Shown: piece after piece, positions 11,976 through 19,619 of the stretch
How the letters are laid out: the number at the start of each line of letters is the position of its first letter
How positions within the stretch are numbered: the stretch's first letter is position 1
From: Nitrospira bacterium HGW-Nitrospira-1
GTDB taxonomy: Bacteria; Nitrospirota; Thermodesulfovibrionia; Thermodesulfovibrionales; UBA6898
Assembly (NCBI GenBank): GCA_002839535.1
Contig: PGYF01000013.1
Location: forward strand, 5,176 to 44,968
Direction of reading: 5' to 3'
DNA length: 39,793 nucleotides
Notes under the pieces: generated by a model
The model's input: the letters and a program-made list of their open reading frames with translations, nothing else
Told to the model about the DNA's origin: nothing
Database searches by the model: none
Position numbers and translations under genes: made by a program

Positions 11976-12725
11976 TTGGGAGCAGGGAAAAAAGCAAACA
12001 TAGGTCTTATAGCCTCGGTTTTTTCCGAGGGGACAATGTTCGAAAGTACGTTCAAAGCTATAGGGAAAGCGCTTCCCTGTTATCCGGCCTTTTATACCGG
12101 CATTGTTACAGGTAATCGGGCAATATTGGGAATATCAGGTGTCGGGAAAGTGAATGCTGCGCATACCGTGACCGTACTCATAGAAAAATTCTCTCCGTCG
12201 TGCATTATCAATTTCGGGACAGGGGGCACTTTCCCCTCTTCAGGGCTTAAGGTAGGTGATATTGCTGTTGCCGAAAAAGAGGTCTATGCTGACGAGGGCG
12301 TACTGTTGAAAGACGGGTTTCATGGTATAGACCTTATCGGCATACCTTTGTTCCAAAAAGGCAGGAAGAAGTATTTCAATGAATTTCCTCTTGATAAGCC
12401 GCTTATCAGAAAGGCTGTCAGGGCTGCTCAACTCATTACGCATTACGCATCACCGGAAACAGTCAAAAAAGGAACTTTTTTGACTGTTTCCGCCTGCACA
12501 GGGACAAAAAAACGGGCTGGAGAACTTGAAAGAAAATTCAGTCCTCTCTGCGAAAATATGGAAGGGGCCTCAATCGCACATATCTGTTGTCTCTATGGAA
12601 TCCCGTTTGTCGAGATAAGGGGCGTCAGCAATATGGTCGAAAACCGCGATAAGGGCAAATGGGACATAAAACTGGCGGCAGAGAATTGCCAGAAGGCGGT
12701 ATTGGAACTTCTTAATATTCTTTAA
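11976..12725 (+). CDS. mqnB: Futalosine hydrolase
   Basis: Removes hypoxanthine from futalosine in the futalosine route to menaquinone. 249 aa with a nucleoside phosphorylase / MTA-SAH nucleosidase fold: ILGISGVGKVNAAHTV near residues 50-65, a GTGGTFP loop, then ENMEGASIAHICCLYGIPF with the catalytic Glu region and the EIRGVSNMVENRD ending typical of MqnB rather than of MTA/SAH nucleosidase. The start is TTG 11976, with only a weak GGGAAAA upstream. Residues of about 154-159 (THYASP) come from an ATTACGC repeat that abuts a perfect palindrome. mqnD of the same pathway lies 6 kb downstream beyond the accessory block. Confidence 0.92.
   Translation: MGAGKKANIGLIASVFSEGTMFESTFKAIGKALPCYPAFYTGIVTGNRAILGISGVGKVNAAHTVTVLIEKFSPSCIINFGTGGTFPSSGLKVGDIAVAEKEVYADEGVLLKDGFHGIDLIGIPLFQKGRKKYFNEFPLDKPLIRKAVRAAQLITHYASPETVKKGTFLTVSACTGTKKRAGELERKFSPLCENMEGASIAHICCLYGIPFVEIRGVSNMVENRDKGKWDIKLAAENCQKAVLELLNIL
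12454..12492 (+). repeat. Perfect 17-bp inverted repeat inside mqnB
   Basis: CGGAAACAGTCAAAAAA (12454-12470) and its exact complement (12476-12492) flank the loop GGAAC. The right arm encodes the conserved LTVSA stretch, so the left arm is probably a copy of it in reverse. Just before it, 12434-12450 holds ATTACGC twice in tandem. An mRNA hairpin of this size inside a coding region is unusual. Confidence 0.88.
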
Positions 12726-12736
12726 CGCAGTTAATG

Positions 12737-12880
12737 CTAAATAGTGTCTGTGTATAAATTAAAGTTTGTCATCCTCGGGCTTGACCCGGGGATCCAGAAC
12801 ATATTGAAAGCAATGGATTCCCGATTAAGGACTTCGGGAATGACGAACAAAAAGCAGAGTTTATACACAGGCTCTAAATA
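12737..12880. mobile_element. MITE-like element with terminal inverted repeats
   Basis: A 7-bp direct repeat CTAAATA flanks the element (12737-12743 and 12874-12880). Inside are inverted ends: 12744-12760 reads GTGTCTGTGTATAAATT and 12858-12873 reads as its near-complement (shared core CTGTGTATAAA). The interior contains GTCATCCTCGGGCTTGACCC near the left and CGGGAATGACGA near the right, the same general type of palindromic repeat as copies A-C. It has no coding capacity. It marks the left border of the accessory block next to mqnB. Confidence 0.65.
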
Positions 12881-12948
12881 ATTTATTAAAATATATTCTT
12901 TTTTGATAGAATAGTTTCAAAACAAAAAGTAAAATAAAGGGGAAAAGA

Positions 12949-13695
12949 TTGAGCGAATATACTGTCTTCCCAAATGCACCTATAACTGAAGCTCTATTAG
13001 ATATTCGTGTTGAGTTACCAGAAGATGTCGATATTAATAAAATAGAAACTTTTCATGAGCATGTCAAAGATAGATTCCCTGATAAGAAAACAAGGGGTGC
13101 CTTTGCGATAGGAGTACAATTAATGCCAGATGGAACTCCGCAATCGCTTCCTGCCTCTGGTGGCCCCCAAGGATTCCTTTTCCGTTCACCTAACGAGAAT
13201 AAAATAGTTCAAGCAAGAATAGATGGCTTCACTTTTAACAAACTAAGGCCCTATGAGAACTGGACAGTTTTTCGTTCTGAGGCTAAATCATTGTGGAATA
13301 TGTATGTAGACCAGTTCGTTCCAAAAAAAGTAACTCGCATTGCCTTAAGGTATATAAATAGAATAGAAGTACCTTTACCGATAAAGGACTTTAAAGAGTA
13401 CATTTTAACTAATCCTGAGATTGCACCAAAGTTGTCACAATTTATTGATCATTTTTTTATGCAGGTTATATTGCCAAATCCAGAAATTCAAGCCAAAGCA
13501 GTAATTACTCAGACAATGGAACCAGCCACGGACAAAAACAAACTCCCTTTAATTCTTGATATAGATGTATTCATGGAAGCTGTTTATGTGGATAATAAAG
13601 AAGAAATATGGACCGATTTTGAAAAATTGCATGTATTTAAAAATGAGATATTTTTTAATAGCCTGACTGATAAAGCAAAGGAACTTTTTAAATGA
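12949..13695 (+). CDS. TIGR04255 family protein
   Basis: 248 aa. It begins with TVFPNAPITEALLDIRVELP and continues with GFLFRSPNENKIVQARIDGF, FNKLRPYENW and VTRIALRYINRIEVPLP. These are the hallmarks of the TIGR04255 family, whose members often lie in accessory or defence-rich regions and have no established biochemical role. The start is TTG 12949 behind AAGGGGAAAAG. The stop overlaps the next start as ATGA. Codon use is visibly AT-richer than in neighbouring housekeeping genes, in line with transfer. Confidence 0.82.
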   Translation: MSEYTVFPNAPITEALLDIRVELPEDVDINKIETFHEHVKDRFPDKKTRGAFAIGVQLMPDGTPQSLPASGGPQGFLFRSPNENKIVQARIDGFTFNKLRPYENWTVFRSEAKSLWNMYVDQFVPKKVTRIALRYINRIEVPLPIKDFKEYILTNPEIAPKLSQFIDHFFMQVILPNPEIQAKAVITQTMEPATDKNKLPLILDIDVFMEAVYVDNKEEIWTDFEKLHVFKNEIFFNSLTDKAKELFK

Positions 13696-14147
13696 CATAT
13701 GCTGATTCAAGAAATGCATTGCATTATTTAAATCGTGAAAAAGTCATTGTTGTCTACGTGAATACATCAGCAGTGGGAGATGACTCCAATATAATCACCA
13801 ATGAAGCTGAACGCTCAGTGGGGCACTATCTTATTCCAGCCTCAACACAATTGGCATATCCTGAGACAAGATTTCTTACGCTTAAAAGAGAATGGGAAGA
13901 TAACACTGCTTATCTATCATCTATGACTAAAATAGTCATGCATCCTGCCTATCAGCAAATTATTGGAATGGGCCAAATTGCTATTCCCTTAATCTTTGCG
14001 GCGATGGAAAAAACCCCGGATCATTGGTTCTGGGCTCTAAGGTCTATAACAGGCAAAGATCCTGTGCTACCTGAGCATAGAGGTCGCTTAAGACAGATGA
14101 CTGAAGATTGGCTTAAGTGGGGTAGGGAAAACGGCCATATTGCATGA
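13692..14147 (+). CDS. Hypothetical protein, middle gene of a coupled trio
   Basis: 151 aa, soluble. The recognisable part is the C-terminal two thirds, LKREWEDNTAYLSSMTKIV, HPAYQQIIGMGQIAIP, PDHWFWALRSITGKDP and WLKWGRENGH. I recall this pattern in small conserved hypotheticals encoded next to DUF7689-like genes, but have not checked it. It is joined to both neighbours by ATGA overlaps, so the three proteins are probably made in fixed proportion. No catalytic motif seen. Confidence 0.72.
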   Translation: MTYADSRNALHYLNREKVIVVYVNTSAVGDDSNIITNEAERSVGHYLIPASTQLAYPETRFLTLKREWEDNTAYLSSMTKIVMHPAYQQIIGMGQIAIPLIFAAMEKTPDHWFWALRSITGKDPVLPEHRGRLRQMTEDWLKWGRENGHIA

Positions 14148-14590
14148 GTTCTGAGGGACAGAAACTGATCGAGGAAATTTTCCCCGGCTTGTTATCCAGT
14201 GGGTATGATATTGCCAGCCCAGCCACAAGAGAATATAATTGCATTGCTTGGGCTGCCGGAGATAGTGAAACTTGGTGGTGGCCTAATAAAGATTGTTTCT
14301 GGCCGTCTGAAATCCCGCAAGAAGAAAACCTGGAGGTGTTCATTAAGGTCTATGAAGCTTTTGGATACTCTCTTTGTGCTATCGATAGCTATGAAGAAGG
14401 GGCAGAGAAAGTTGCCATATATGTTGATCCCGAAGGAATACCAACCCATACAGCAAGGCAGTTAAGCAACGGACGCTGGACAAGCAAGTTGGGGAAACTT
14501 GAAGATATAGAACACAACTCTTTGGAAGGCCTTTACGGCCATACTTACGGCGCTGTTGCAGTGATTATGAAAAGGCCGATAAAAAAGTAA
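14144..14590 (+). CDS. DUF7689-like protein
   Basis: 148 aa, soluble. Near residue 28 it has REYNCIAWAAGDSETWWWP, an NC-x-A-W-A-x(n)-WWWP pattern that places a conserved Cys in a possible active site. HTARQLSNGRWTSKLGKLEDIEH and a YGHTYGAVAVIMKRP ending follow. The arrangement of Cys33, His and Asn/Asp would suit a papain-like or transglutaminase-like hydrolase, but this is inference. It is translationally coupled to the upstream gene by ATGA and followed by the 43-aa gene after two bases. Confidence 0.72.
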   Translation: MSSEGQKLIEEIFPGLLSSGYDIASPATREYNCIAWAAGDSETWWWPNKDCFWPSEIPQEENLEVFIKVYEAFGYSLCAIDSYEEGAEKVAIYVDPEGIPTHTARQLSNGRWTSKLGKLEDIEHNSLEGLYGHTYGAVAVIMKRPIKK

Positions 14591-14592
14591 AG

Positions 14593-14724
14593 ATGCCGAA
14601 ATCAAAATACGATAATTATACAAAAGAGCAGTTGGTGGAGAAGATAAAACAGCTTGAAAAGCATCGCTATGGATTAGTCTGGGAGGACAAGCAGGAAGAC
14701 TTGAAGAATAAGGAAATCAAATGA
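14593..14724 (+). CDS. 43-aa leader-like protein of the restriction-modification locus
   Basis: A short, highly charged peptide beginning MPKSKYDNYTKEQLVEKIKQ with YGLVWEDKQED near its end. The segment resembles the N-terminal extension (KYGLVWEDKPE) found on some adenine methyltransferases of this type. Here it ends in TGA overlapping the ATG of the fusion gene (ATGA). It may be a detached N-terminal piece or a small partner subunit. Too short for routine gene calls but well placed. Confidence 0.62.
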   Translation: MPKSKYDNYTKEQLVEKIKQLEKHRYGLVWEDKQEDLKNKEIK

Positions 14725-16823
14725 CACAAGAAGACATCATCCAAACGATTCTCAAAGACAGTAATTATCATCTTTCTCTCTTTTCCGATGATGAGATTGC
14801 TGCCCTGAGCAATAAAATTAATATCAAGGAATCAAAGAGCAGGAAAATGCCCTTTGTCGTCTGCATTATTCGTGGCAAAGACATCCCGTTGAAGCCAGAA
14901 GAAGTTGTCCGTCAGCTTTATGCAGCAAGACTGATCGAGCAATACGGCTACCCCAAAAAACGGCTTGCTTTTGAATATCCGGTCAATTTCGGGAGGGAGA
15001 AGAAAAGCGCTGATATAGTGGTATTTGATAAAGACAGACCTGATACGCCATACATTATCGTTGAGTTGAAAAAGCCGAAACTCAAAGACGGCAAAGACCA
15101 GCTCCGTTCATATCGCAATGCGACCGGCGCGCCGATGAGTGTCTGGACCAATGGCGAGAAGATTTCTCATTACCACCGCAAAGACCCTAACTATTTTGAA
15201 GACATCACCGACATCCCCAAGGCAAGCCAGAGCATTAAGGACATACTCAGTGAACGGTTTACCCTGAAGGACCTTATCATTAAGGATAAACTCGCCAACG
15301 AGCGTAAGTCCCTGAAAGATATTATTCTTGAAATGGAAGACGAAGTGCTTGCCAACGCTGGCGTAGATGTCTTTGAAGAGGTCTTTAAGCTCATATTTAC
15401 CAAGCTTTATGATGAATTTCTGAGTCAGAAAGATAAAGACATAATCAACTATTTTACAAAACAGGTTACTCAAACCGCAGTGGGAGAACCGGTTGCAACC
15501 TATGGCAATAAGCCCGGATATTTTGATGGTTCCGATTATGACGCGCTAAATGCCGCCGTAAGCGGCATTGATGATGAGGGCTTCAGAGTTATGGAGTTCA
15601 GAAACTCCGGCCAGACTGATACGGAACTGAAAAACAAGATTCAAGGTTTGTTCGATCAGGCAAAAAGCCAGTGGCCGGGTGTTTTTGCGGACGGGTCTGT
15701 TTTTGAGCTATCGGACAGCCATTTGGCCATCTGTATTGCGAGCTTGCAGGATGTAAAGCTGTTCAACTCCAATTTATTGGTGGTGGATGAAGCCTTTGAA
15801 TATCTGGTGAATAAATCTGCCAAAGGAGAAAAGGGGCAATACTTCACGCCGCGTCATATTATAGATATGTGCGTGAAGATGCTCAATCCTAAGGCTGGAG
15901 AGTATATGATTGACACGGCTTCAGGCAGTTGCGGGTTTCCTGTGCATACCATTTTTCAGATTACGGGACATCTGTTTACAAACGCCGAAATCTCTGAGAA
16001 AGACAAGGAGTATGTCTTAAAAGTCTTCGGCATAGACTTTGACGAAAAGACCGTGCGCGTGGCCCGCACTCTGAATCTTATTGCCGGTGACGGCGAAACC
16101 AATGTGCTGCATTTAAACGCTCTGGACTATGAACGATGGGACGACAAGACGGAGAACGATAAAAAATGGATTAAGACCTATGGCAAGGGATTTGAACGAC
16201 TGGAAAAGCTCCGGGCCGAAAAGGGCGAAAATAAATACTTCAATTTTGATATTCTGATGGCCAATCCGCCTTTTGCCGGAGACATTAAAGAGAACCGCAT
16301 CCTGCATCAGTACGAACTGGGATTTAATGCCAACAATAAAGCGCAATCCAAAGTCGGACGGGACATTCTATTTATCGAGCGCAACCTGGACTTTCTCAAA
16401 CCCGGCGGGCGCATGGCAATAGTCCTGCCTCAAGGCCGCTTCAATAACACTTCGGATAAACCTATTCGGGAATTTATCGCCCAACATGGGCGGATACTGG
16501 CTGTTGTAGGTTTGCACGGCAACACCTTCAAGCCACATACAGGCACCAAGACCAGTGTTTTGTTTATACAGAAATGGGACGATAAACTTTGCCCTAAAGT
16601 AGAGGACTATCCCATCTTCTTTGCAGTGAGTGAAAAAGGCGGCAAGGACAACTCCGGCGACTATGTCTATGTAAAAAATGGCACAGGGCAAGACAAGCTG
16701 GATAAAAACGGCCACCTCATCGTTGACCATGACTTGCATAATCATAATGGAGAATTGTCTGACGGCATTGCCGAGGCCTTTATAAAGTTTGCCAAAAAGG
16801 AAAAGCTGTCGTTTTGGAAATAA
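14721..16823 (+). CDS. Restriction-modification fusion: PD-(D/E)XK nuclease domain plus N6-adenine methyltransferase (HsdM-like)
   Basis: 700 aa. The N-terminal 160 residues look like a type I R-subunit nuclease domain, with D98 in SADIVVFD, then E115-x-K117 in IIVELKKPK and Q127 in KDQLRSY. The middle is helical. The methyltransferase starts near residue 370 with KGEKGQYFTPRHIIDMCV, then motif I DTASGSCGF at 398 and catalytic NPPF at 515-518, followed by GGRMAIVLPQGRF. Cleavage and methylation in one chain, with a separate specificity subunit downstream and no helicase, resembles type IIB/IIG systems such as BcgI. Expected to act on DNA with the hsdS product. Confidence 0.9.
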   Translation: MTQEDIIQTILKDSNYHLSLFSDDEIAALSNKINIKESKSRKMPFVVCIIRGKDIPLKPEEVVRQLYAARLIEQYGYPKKRLAFEYPVNFGREKKSADIVVFDKDRPDTPYIIVELKKPKLKDGKDQLRSYRNATGAPMSVWTNGEKISHYHRKDPNYFEDITDIPKASQSIKDILSERFTLKDLIIKDKLANERKSLKDIILEMEDEVLANAGVDVFEEVFKLIFTKLYDEFLSQKDKDIINYFTKQVTQTAVGEPVATYGNKPGYFDGSDYDALNAAVSGIDDEGFRVMEFRNSGQTDTELKNKIQGLFDQAKSQWPGVFADGSVFELSDSHLAICIASLQDVKLFNSNLLVVDEAFEYLVNKSAKGEKGQYFTPRHIIDMCVKMLNPKAGEYMIDTASGSCGFPVHTIFQITGHLFTNAEISEKDKEYVLKVFGIDFDEKTVRVARTLNLIAGDGETNVLHLNALDYERWDDKTENDKKWIKTYGKGFERLEKLRAEKGENKYFNFDILMANPPFAGDIKENRILHQYELGFNANNKAQSKVGRDILFIERNLDFLKPGGRMAIVLPQGRFNNTSDKPIREFIAQHGRILAVVGLHGNTFKPHTGTKTSVLFIQKWDDKLCPKVEDYPIFFAVSEKGGKDNSGDYVYVKNGTGQDKLDKNGHLIVDHDLHNHNGELSDGIAEAFIKFAKKEKLSFWK

Positions 16824-16826
16824 ATT

Positions 16827-17825
16827 ATGAAAAAAGATATTCTGCAAAAAGGCGAAATAATAATTTATAGGACCTCAAAAAATGAGGTAGAGTTGGAAGT
16901 CAAACTGGAGGAAGAAACTGTTTGGCTTTCTTTAGATCAAATGGCTGTCTTGTTTAAAAGAGATAAATCTGTTATTTCGCGCCATATCAAAAATATTTTT
17001 AACGAAAAGGAATTAGAGCAAAAATCAGTTATTGCAAATTTTGCAACAACTGCCGCAGATGGAAAGGTTTATCAAGTGAATTACTATAATCTGGATGTCG
17101 TTATTTCCGTGGGCTATAGGGTTAAATCACAAAATGGAGTAAAGTTTCGCATTTGGGCGAGCAATGTTTTGAAGCAATACCTCATTAAAGGCTATGCCAT
17201 AAACAGTAAAAAGCTTTTGGAAGCACAAAGTAAATTTAATGAACTTCAGGAGGCGGTTTTATTTCTACAAAAGCAGTCGCAAAAAGAACTCCTGAAAGGT
17301 CAGGAAACTGAAATTATAAACTTGCTTGCAGATTATTCCAAGACCTTGTCGCTTCTTGAACAATATGACAAGGGGAAACTTCAGGCGCAAAAAGGGAAGA
17401 AGACCGCATTTGTTTTGCAATATAAGGACTGCATCAAAATAATTGCAGAGCTAAAAAAAGAACTGACTGCCAAAAAAGAAGCAGGAGATCTGTTTGGCGT
17501 GGAAAGAGGCGGCGGTTTTACCGGCGTCGTCAAAGGGCTGTATCAAACATTTGATAGAAAAGAACTGTATCCGACTATTGAAGCCAAAGCATCGCATTTG
17601 CTGTATCTGACTATTAAAGATCATCCTTTTACTGACGGCAATAAAAGAGTTGCCTCATTTTTGTTTGTCTTTTTTTTGGACAGATCAAATTATCTCTTTA
17701 AAAAATCAGGCGAGAGAAAAATCAATGACAACGCTTTGACAGCGCTGGCTTTGCTGGTTGCCGAAAGCGACCCGAAAGATAAAGATGTAATGATTAAGAT
17801 TATCAAAAATTTAATCTCTGAATAA
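16827..17825 (+). CDS. rhuM: RhuM family protein with C-terminal Doc/Fic-type domain
   Basis: 332 aa. The N-terminal RhuM part (residues of about 10-125) has WLSLDQMAVLFKRDKSVISRHIKNI, a helix-turn-helix-like segment, and VISVGYRVKSQNGVKFRIWA. A coiled coil spans about 130-215. The C-terminal domain has a Doc/Fic core HPFTDGNKRVASF at 266-278, with H266, D270, N272, K273 and R274 intact. Doc-type proteins phosphorylate EF-Tu and Fic proteins AMPylate targets, so this may be a toxin-like or regulatory enzyme. It sits 3 bases after the methyltransferase and before hsdS, a place where rhuM-like genes are often found. Confidence 0.88.
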   Translation: MKKDILQKGEIIIYRTSKNEVELEVKLEEETVWLSLDQMAVLFKRDKSVISRHIKNIFNEKELEQKSVIANFATTAADGKVYQVNYYNLDVVISVGYRVKSQNGVKFRIWASNVLKQYLIKGYAINSKKLLEAQSKFNELQEAVLFLQKQSQKELLKGQETEIINLLADYSKTLSLLEQYDKGKLQAQKGKKTAFVLQYKDCIKIIAELKKELTAKKEAGDLFGVERGGGFTGVVKGLYQTFDRKELYPTIEAKASHLLYLTIKDHPFTDGNKRVASFLFVFFLDRSNYLFKKSGERKINDNALTALALLVAESDPKDKDVMIKIIKNLISE

Positions 17826-17831
17826 ATAACT

Positions 17832-18452
17832 ATGCAATATTCAATTGTAAATTGGAAAGACCATGAGCCAACTTCTTTACGGCTTGATGCTGAATATTAC
17901 CGACCTATATTTTTACAGACGGAAAGGCAAATAAAGAGCAAGGAATGGGATTATCTGGAGAATTTATCTGAATCCATAAAAAGCTTTGGTGCATATTCAC
18001 TTTGTAATCAATTTGAATATATAGAAAAAGGTATTCCATTTCTAAGATGTAAAGACATTAAATCCGGGCGTATCGACTTTTCTGATGTTCTTTACATTAG
18101 TCACGATGCAAACAAGCTTTTATGCAAATCAGAAGTAAAGCCAAAAACTGTTCTTTTCACGATGTCGGGAACAGTCGGAAATTCTGCTATTGCAACAGAA
18201 GAGATTAAATATCCTATTAACTCAAATCAGGATATTGCAAAGATAGTCACGAATAGACAATTGAATCCATACTATTTCTCAGTATTCTTACAATCAAGCT
18301 ATGGCGAAAAGCAAGTTTCCAGATTGCCTGTTGGAAGCGTGCAGCAACATGTTTTTTTGTGGCAACTTGAGAAACTTATTGTTCCTAATGAAGACGCAGC
18401 TAATAAATGGCTGCAAACGCAAACAAAAGAGGCTGTTTCCTGTTGTCGATGA
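17832..18452 (+). CDS. hsdS: Type I-like specificity subunit, single target-recognition domain (probably truncated)
   Basis: 206 aa, about half of a normal S subunit. It starts near the conserved RLDAEYYRP, followed by one target-recognition domain with GIPFLRCKDIKSGRI, TVLFTMSGTVGNSAIA and PINSNQDIAKIV. The spacer PVGSVQQHVFLWQLEKLIVP ends abruptly in a non-conserved tail (ANKWLQTQTKEAVSCCR). The usual coiled-coil linker and second recognition domain are missing. It might dimerise as a half-S protein or be a deletion product. It follows rhuM by 6 bases in the same operon. Confidence 0.85.
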   Translation: MQYSIVNWKDHEPTSLRLDAEYYRPIFLQTERQIKSKEWDYLENLSESIKSFGAYSLCNQFEYIEKGIPFLRCKDIKSGRIDFSDVLYISHDANKLLCKSEVKPKTVLFTMSGTVGNSAIATEEIKYPINSNQDIAKIVTNRQLNPYYFSVFLQSSYGEKQVSRLPVGSVQQHVFLWQLEKLIVPNEDAANKWLQTQTKEAVSCCR

Positions 18453-18524
18453 ATAGGATTAGACATGACAATCTGATATTTGATGAGGCATTCTTGATAG
18501 GGTTGTTAGAAGGAGAACTAATAT

Positions 18525-18872
18525 ATGCCGCTTCCACTTTTAATAAAAACACTTACTGAAAAAAAGTTAAAAAAATATTGTGAGAATAAAATTCCGTCGC
18601 ATGTCAGGGATAAAATAACACTTTCATTTAAGTTCAGAGGAAACAGCGTTACCATATTTGAAAACAGGGCGCCATGGCATCCGGACATAAAAGAATGGTC
18701 TTCCATGCCAATAGCCCAAATGAGATATGATGGTAAAACTGGCAAATGGAATCTCTACTGTGCTGACAGAAACGATAGATGGCACGAATATTACGACGTT
18801 GAGCCGACAAAAAATATTGATGTCATCTTAAAAGAAATCGAGGACGACCCTACAGGGATTTTCTGGGGATAA
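18525..18872 (+). CDS. DUF3024 family protein
   Basis: 115 aa, soluble. The family pattern is clear: FRGNSVTIFENRAPWHPD, PIAQMRYDGKTGKWNLYCAD, RNDRWHEYYD and the terminal DDPTGIFWG. Function unknown. DUF3024 proteins are small cargo genes that often travel with restriction-modification or other accessory blocks. ATG 18525 is preceded by AGAAGGAG. The stop is 3 bases from the mqnD start, so mqnD is probably read from the accessory transcript. Confidence 0.86.
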   Translation: MPLPLLIKTLTEKKLKKYCENKIPSHVRDKITLSFKFRGNSVTIFENRAPWHPDIKEWSSMPIAQMRYDGKTGKWNLYCADRNDRWHEYYDVEPTKNIDVILKEIEDDPTGIFWG

Positions 18873-18875
18873 TCT

Positions 18876-19619
18876 ATGCCTGCTAAGACTTTGACTCTCG
18901 GATACTCACCCTGTCCAAACGACACCTTTATTTTTTATGCGCTTGCGCATGGGAAGATCAATGCAGGCGATCTGCGTTTCAGGGAGATACTTGAGGATGT
19001 GGAGACCTTAAACCGGATGGCCCGACGTGCAGAGCTTGATATTACGAAGATATCATTCCACGCCTACGGGCATCTGAGGGAGACCTATTGCCTGCTTAGG
19101 TCAGGCGCCGCGATCGGGAAGGGCTGCGGTCCGCTCGTTGTCTCAAAAAAATATCAGCAGATGAATGACCTGCGAGGCAAAAAAATTGCAATCCCCGGAC
19201 AGCTTACAACCGCATTCCTTCTCCTTCAGCTTTTCGATCCGCTTTTTAAAGGAAATGTGATCGTAATGCCTTTTCATCGTATTATCAATGCGGTCAGAAA
19301 TGATGAGGCTGATGCAGGGCTGATCATCCATGAAAGCCGTTTCACATATCAGGATGCAGGTCTGAATCAGGTCGTGGATCTCGGCGAGTGGTGGGAAAGG
19401 GAAACAGGGCTGCCGATCCCCCTTGGCGGCATTATTGCAAAAAGGGAATTGGGAGAAGCCATGATAAAGGAGATAGACAGGGGCGTCAGAAAAAGCCTTG
19501 AGTATGCCTTTGAGCACAAGGCTGAGCCGAAATCATATATCAAAAAACATTCCCAGGAAATCGAGGACAGCGTTATAGAGCAGCATATCGGCCTTTATGT
19601 TCTGAAGAGAAAGGGATAA
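18876..19619 (+). CDS. mqnD: 1,4-dihydroxy-6-naphthoate synthase
   Basis: Converts cyclic dehypoxanthinyl futalosine to 1,4-dihydroxy-6-naphthoate in the futalosine menaquinone route. 247 aa with the periplasmic-binding-protein-like fold of the family. The N-terminus LGYSPCPNDTFIFYAL is diagnostic, followed by DITKISFHAYGHL, GCGPLVVSKK, ADAGLIIHESRFTYQ with the catalytic His region, and LPIPLGGIIAKREL. Its pathway partner mqnB is on the other side of the accessory block, and the two were probably adjacent before insertion. Confidence 0.95.
   Translation: MPAKTLTLGYSPCPNDTFIFYALAHGKINAGDLRFREILEDVETLNRMARRAELDITKISFHAYGHLRETYCLLRSGAAIGKGCGPLVVSKKYQQMNDLRGKKIAIPGQLTTAFLLLQLFDPLFKGNVIVMPFHRIINAVRNDEADAGLIIHESRFTYQDAGLNQVVDLGEWWERETGLPIPLGGIIAKRELGEAMIKEIDRGVRKSLEYAFEHKAEPKSYIKKHSQEIEDSVIEQHIGLYVLKRKG

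Follow-up and report, generated by a model that had tools for sequence, protein, structure and literature searches.

A probably crippled Type IIB-like restriction-modification operon with RhuM-Doc cargo in a genomic island of a Nitrospira bacterium

The window, a stretch of 39,793 nucleotides from Nitrospira bacterium HGW-Nitrospira-1, probably carries a Type IIB-like (BcgI/BsaXI-like) restriction-modification (R-M) operon that was acquired in an island, holds a RhuM-Doc gene as cargo and has an internally deleted specificity (S) subunit, with its R-M function crippled. The locus belongs to a known and widespread two-gene R-M kind. Its domains, conserved catalytic residues, recurring gene order, S deletion and island insertion are observed, with no hsdR found in the host genome, and we infer the activities of all its proteins.

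Organization of the operon and its genomic island

The island, its flanking genes and the operon are arranged as follows.

11976-12725: mqnB, left neighbour of the island
12726-18875, + strand: acquired island of 6.15 kb between mqnB and mqnD
14593-14724, + strand: 43-aa ORF, overlapping the RM start by 4 nt
14721-16823, + strand: RM subunit, 700 aa, with HSDR_N_2 at aa 59-166 (D98, E115, K117), N6-adenine methyltransferase at aa 355-627 and NPPF at 515
16827-17825, + strand: RhuM-Doc protein, 332 aa, with a RhuM domain at aa 67-175, Fic/Doc at aa 229-284 and the motif HPFTDGNKR
17832-18452, + strand: S', specificity subunit with an apparent internal deletion, 206 aa, TRD1 at aa 1-188 plus the C-terminal tail NEDAANKWLQTQTKEA
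18525-18872, + strand: DUF3024 protein, 115 aa, final gene of the island, PADLOC candidate PDC-S43
18876-19619: mqnD, right neighbour of the island

The four ORFs of 43, 700, 332 and 206 aa lie at the positions and on the strand given by the initial annotation; after the 4-nt overlap at the RM start, RM and RhuM-Doc are separated by 3 nt and RhuM-Doc and S' by 6 nt. Within the island they follow genes for a TIGR04255 protein, an unknown protein and a DUF7689 protein, and precede the DUF3024 gene. In all 19 relatives in which both flanking genes were found, mqnB lies next to mqnD (-79 to 343 bp) and the island is absent; in a same-genus genome the gap is 341 bp. This adjacency identifies the intervening 6.15 kb of the window as an island, most likely acquired horizontally. 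At its left edge lies a 135-bp element (12742-12876) with 17-nt inverted ends (88% complementary), resembling a small non-coding mobile element.

The host genome is a draft of 1.66 Mb in 182 contigs with 99% completeness; family members have 2.2-3.9 Mb. The mqnD product measures 247 aa against about 278, with about 64 nt missing near codon 242 relative to the same-genus genome. Together, the small genome and the deletions in S and mqnD may point to genome reduction.

The RM subunit and the absence of a motor

The 700-aa protein fuses an N-terminal nuclease to an N6-adenine methyltransferase (Pfam HSDR_N_2, 4.7e-29; N6_Mtase, 1e-31). Across 67 aligned sequences, D98 is conserved in 66 and E115, K117 and the NPPF motif in all 67, a degree of retention that argues against a chance PD-ExK signature. 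Both the D98/E115-x-K117 nuclease and the NPPF methyltransferase proposed from the initial reading are thus confirmed by profile match and residue conservation. The best solved relative by profile is RM.BsaXI (6.5e-28), which is also the best PDB fold match of the RM AlphaFold model; the middling confidence of that model (pLDDT 69) makes the fold match supporting evidence only.

Type IIB enzymes consist of RM plus S or of single RMS chains (PMC11997821), and their cleavage and methylation each need both subunits (PMC3874165). The window RM combines the PD-(D/E)xK nuclease and N6A methyltransferase of this kind, and no ATP-dependent motor subunit was found in the host genome or recurs beside the relatives. 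Specifically, an HsdR encoded elsewhere, which would speak against the BcgI/BsaXI-like layout first proposed for a helicase-free RM fusion followed by an S gene, was not found in the 99%-complete genome, and the BcgI-like reading therefore holds. That genome has a single HSDR_N_2 gene and no Pfam-level Methylase_S match. Its ResIII matches, read from sequence, are Mfd, UvrB, DEAD-box helicases, a DinG-like helicase, SecA and UvrD, and the remaining one is a DUF1016-associated ResIII helicase. The Type IIB arrangement TRD1-CR1-TRD2-CR2 occurs in the S of most relatives and is absent from S'; because this two-TRD S is missing, the window operon does not count as a complete Type IIB system.

An ordinary Type I system, with the RM protein as its M subunit and HsdR elsewhere, is very improbable and largely refuted. 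PADLOC does label the RM family MTase_I (972 bits), in agreement with such a reading, but the HsdR motor that defines Type I was not found in the host genome, only 2 of 64 large ORFs neighbouring the relatives match ResIII or DEAD models, and the M protein itself carries the conserved nuclease.

Another N6_Mtase gene in the host genome lies on contig C56 (G000:C56, L155; 2751-3767) and encodes 338 aa whose profile match starts at position 38. Neither an S nor an R gene was recognised beside it on that contig, and it may be what is left of a second R-M system.

A widespread RM-S family

A genome_contigs search yielded 80 relatives with 59-92% identity over the best segments, the nearest RM being that of L009; a viral_contigs scan yielded four distant relatives only. 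The family plan, an RM of about 690 aa and an S of about 470 aa, is widespread. In most of the 80 relatives RM is followed immediately by an S of about 460-490 aa, which shows that the gene order recurs in other genomes, and S is full length (at least 450 aa) in 53 of the 70 loci with a visible S. Single-chain RM-S fusions are found in L071, L087 and L088, so both Type IIB forms occur in the family. Plasmid pAQ6 carries a long RM ORF.

The 43-aa ORF upstream of RM is real as an ORF, yet it is unique to the window among the loci examined. None of the 80 relatives has a similar peptide upstream of RM, and its best plasmid match is weak (E=0.7) and lies inside a methyltransferase gene. The leader is thus rejected as the possible extra system component first suggested.

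Variation is also seen within and after S. At a distance from contig ends, S is short or split in L015, L018, L019, L033, L038, L054, L083 and L087, that of L087 being the remainder of its RM-S fusion; some of these genes may reflect frameshifts, on/off switching or decay. In L066 (12016-14157) the TRD2-CR2 part is duplicated, giving an S of 713 aa with three TRDs. A third gene of about 200-295 aa stands right after S in L023, L027, L029, L051, L056, L057, L058, L064, L067, L074, L082, L084 and L154. The corresponding cluster of 17 members gave no Pfam match in the three members tested, and 13 of 15 checked members have an RNxxxHG motif resembling the one in HEPN ribonucleases. The window DUF3024 gene, considered as a conserved third component after S, is unrelated to this family.

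An internally deleted specificity subunit

The Methylase_S Pfam match of the 206-aa protein is below threshold (0.0041), while its first ~190 residues resemble Type I S models and MAD5. Of the 475 positions in the family S profile, S' covers 4-191 before ending in NEDAANKWLQTQTKEA. This tail aligns, in both protein and DNA, with the C-termini of full-length S proteins (L009, NEDAAIKWLQEQT; L011, NEDSALKWIGEQTKET). About 265 residues are missing, more than half the length, comprising CR1, TRD2 and nearly all of CR2, with the frame kept. Judged from its sequence, S' consists of TRD1 followed, in frame, by the final ~20 residues that a full-length S would have. Profile coverage and tail alignment accordingly replace the "short S subunit" of the initial annotation, a naturally short protein, with an internally deleted two-TRD S. 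The AlphaFold model of S' (pLDDT 89) consists of one TRD and a 19-residue helix, and its best PDB matches are specificity subunits, BsaXI S included.

In BsaXI, TRD1-CR1 alone is active with a new palindromic specificity, CR1 deletions of 8-32 aa leave partial activity, as in an engineered TRD1-CR1 without 32 of the 42 CR1-helix residues, and full CR1 removal was not obtained (PMC9159934). These results place S' at or beyond the limit of what works. Its loss of function is not certain, because the construct lacking 32 of 42 helix residues was partly active, and the open, in-frame S' with its terminal helix also counts against a crippled subunit. On this basis S' could be a working, perhaps weak, half-S, two copies of which pair through the short C-terminal helix and, with two RM subunits, read a bipartite site that is palindromic, the engineered BsaXI TRD1-CR1 being the model. 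The idea gains from the predicted good fold of S' and from L018, which holds another in-frame half-S with an N-terminal start joined to TRD2-CR2. It is nevertheless unlikely: the L018 protein keeps its CR2, S' retains only ~19 helix residues from the CR2 end, BsaXI yielded no construct entirely without CR1, and 396 genomes of the phylum showed no further copy of the short S. A still less probable version makes S' a natural minimal specificity subunit, a dimer of one TRD and a 19-residue helix reading a palindromic site, with RhuM-Doc acting as a fail-safe, killing the cell or arresting it once the R-M complex is blocked.

The deletion itself is documented by a single contig of a draft assembly, and this, together with the ~64-nt deletion in nearby mqnD, makes an assembly fault possible. 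If the short S were such an artefact, the organism's S would be full length and its Type IIB-like system functional. Fragmentation of the genome into 182 contigs and the second deletion fit this account, which is given a low probability: the S' join is in frame, the genes on both sides are intact, and several relatives also have short or split S genes. A genuine internal deletion in an acquired Type IIB-like operon stays the preferred reading.

Exchangeable cargo at the RM-S junction

The 332-aa protein matches Virulence_RhuM (3.1e-24) and Fic (5.6e-9) in Pfam and PADLOC candidate PDC-S23 (416 bits); its DOC_P1 score is just under the cut-off. It combines a RhuM domain with a Fic/Doc domain bearing HxFxDxNKR, as RhuM-DOC proteins do, and the HPFTDGNKR site is intact, as first described. 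The gene is intact and co-directional with RM and S'. The NKR ending is typical of Doc, and AMPylating Fic proteins have NGR; protein phosphorylation is therefore the likelier activity of RhuM-Doc, rather than AMPylation. The suggestion that it is a safety or toxin element is plausible. As for a Phd-Doc toxin-antitoxin pair, no antitoxin-like ORF is adjacent, the immediate neighbours being RM and S'.

Four relatives (L010, L011, L044 and L047) likewise have RhuM-Doc between RM and S, with the Doc motif kept; directly after RM, L034 has a RhuM-Doc protein and L017 a RhuM-like one that lacks the Doc motif. Junction cargo is present in 18 of 70 loci, the window counted, and its domains include RhuM, Bro-N, PemK/MazF, Fic, DUF488, AAA and a transposase. 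Around differing cargo, S keeps its start (ATGCAATATTC...) and RM its end (TTTTGGAAATAA), which suggests that cargo is swapped between conserved flanks. The RM tree shows several changes of the RhuM label and no clustering of it beyond chance, and L009 lacks RhuM. A single inherited RhuM unit at the junction, which would demand several gains or losses on this tree, is rejected.

Proposed mechanism and significance

Going by the family, intact relatives would combine two RM subunits with one two-TRD S into an enzyme that needs no ATP, methylates the adenines of a bipartite site and cleaves next to sites that lack methylation. In the window genome, an in-frame internal deletion appears to have removed CR1, TRD2 and nearly all of CR2 from S. 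Because these parts are missing, the normal (RM)2S complex probably cannot form; R-M activity of this copy is most likely lost or weak, and Type IIB-like working is conceivable only if S' can still pair. RhuM-Doc would be exchangeable cargo placed between RM and S, intact and predicted to be co-transcribed, and going by its Doc-type motif it most likely modifies proteins, either as a toxin that arrests growth or as a back-up defence.

Toxin-like genes have entered the RM-S junction of this widespread Type IIB-like family repeatedly and across phyla, which makes it a tractable case of defence genes nested in defence genes. The main value of the window copy is its natural S deletion, which could test how little S suffices.

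Comparison with known systems

The closest likeness is to BsaXI/BcgI, which share the fusion of an N-terminal PD-(D/E)xK nuclease to an N6-adenine methyltransferase, the separate S gene and the lack of a motor; BsaXI is the best match in the PDB by both sequence and fold. It is only a distant relative, its RM having 916 aa against 700 aa in the window, where S' lacks CR1-TRD2-CR2 and a RhuM-Doc gene separates RM from S. The methylation-associated defence system (MADS) is a further point of resemblance, with RM similar to MAD2 (288.5 bits) and S' to MAD5 (74.8 bits). These scores fall far under the curated cut-offs (720 for MAD2, 400 for MAD5) and further MAD matches are lacking among the neighbouring genes, so membership is rejected.

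The position of a toxin-like gene inside an R-M operon, as a possible guard, recalls EcoprrI, in which PrrC is embedded. PrrC, an anticodon nuclease, belongs to a Type I operon, whereas the guard role of RhuM-Doc is putative. RhuM-DOC genes (PDC-S23) in R-M loci were noted, and proposed as toxins, in 2013 (PMC3710099), and the window gene is likewise a RhuM fused to Doc inside an R-M operon. It differs from them in that its host R-M is Type IIB-like and the gene lies exactly between RM and S.
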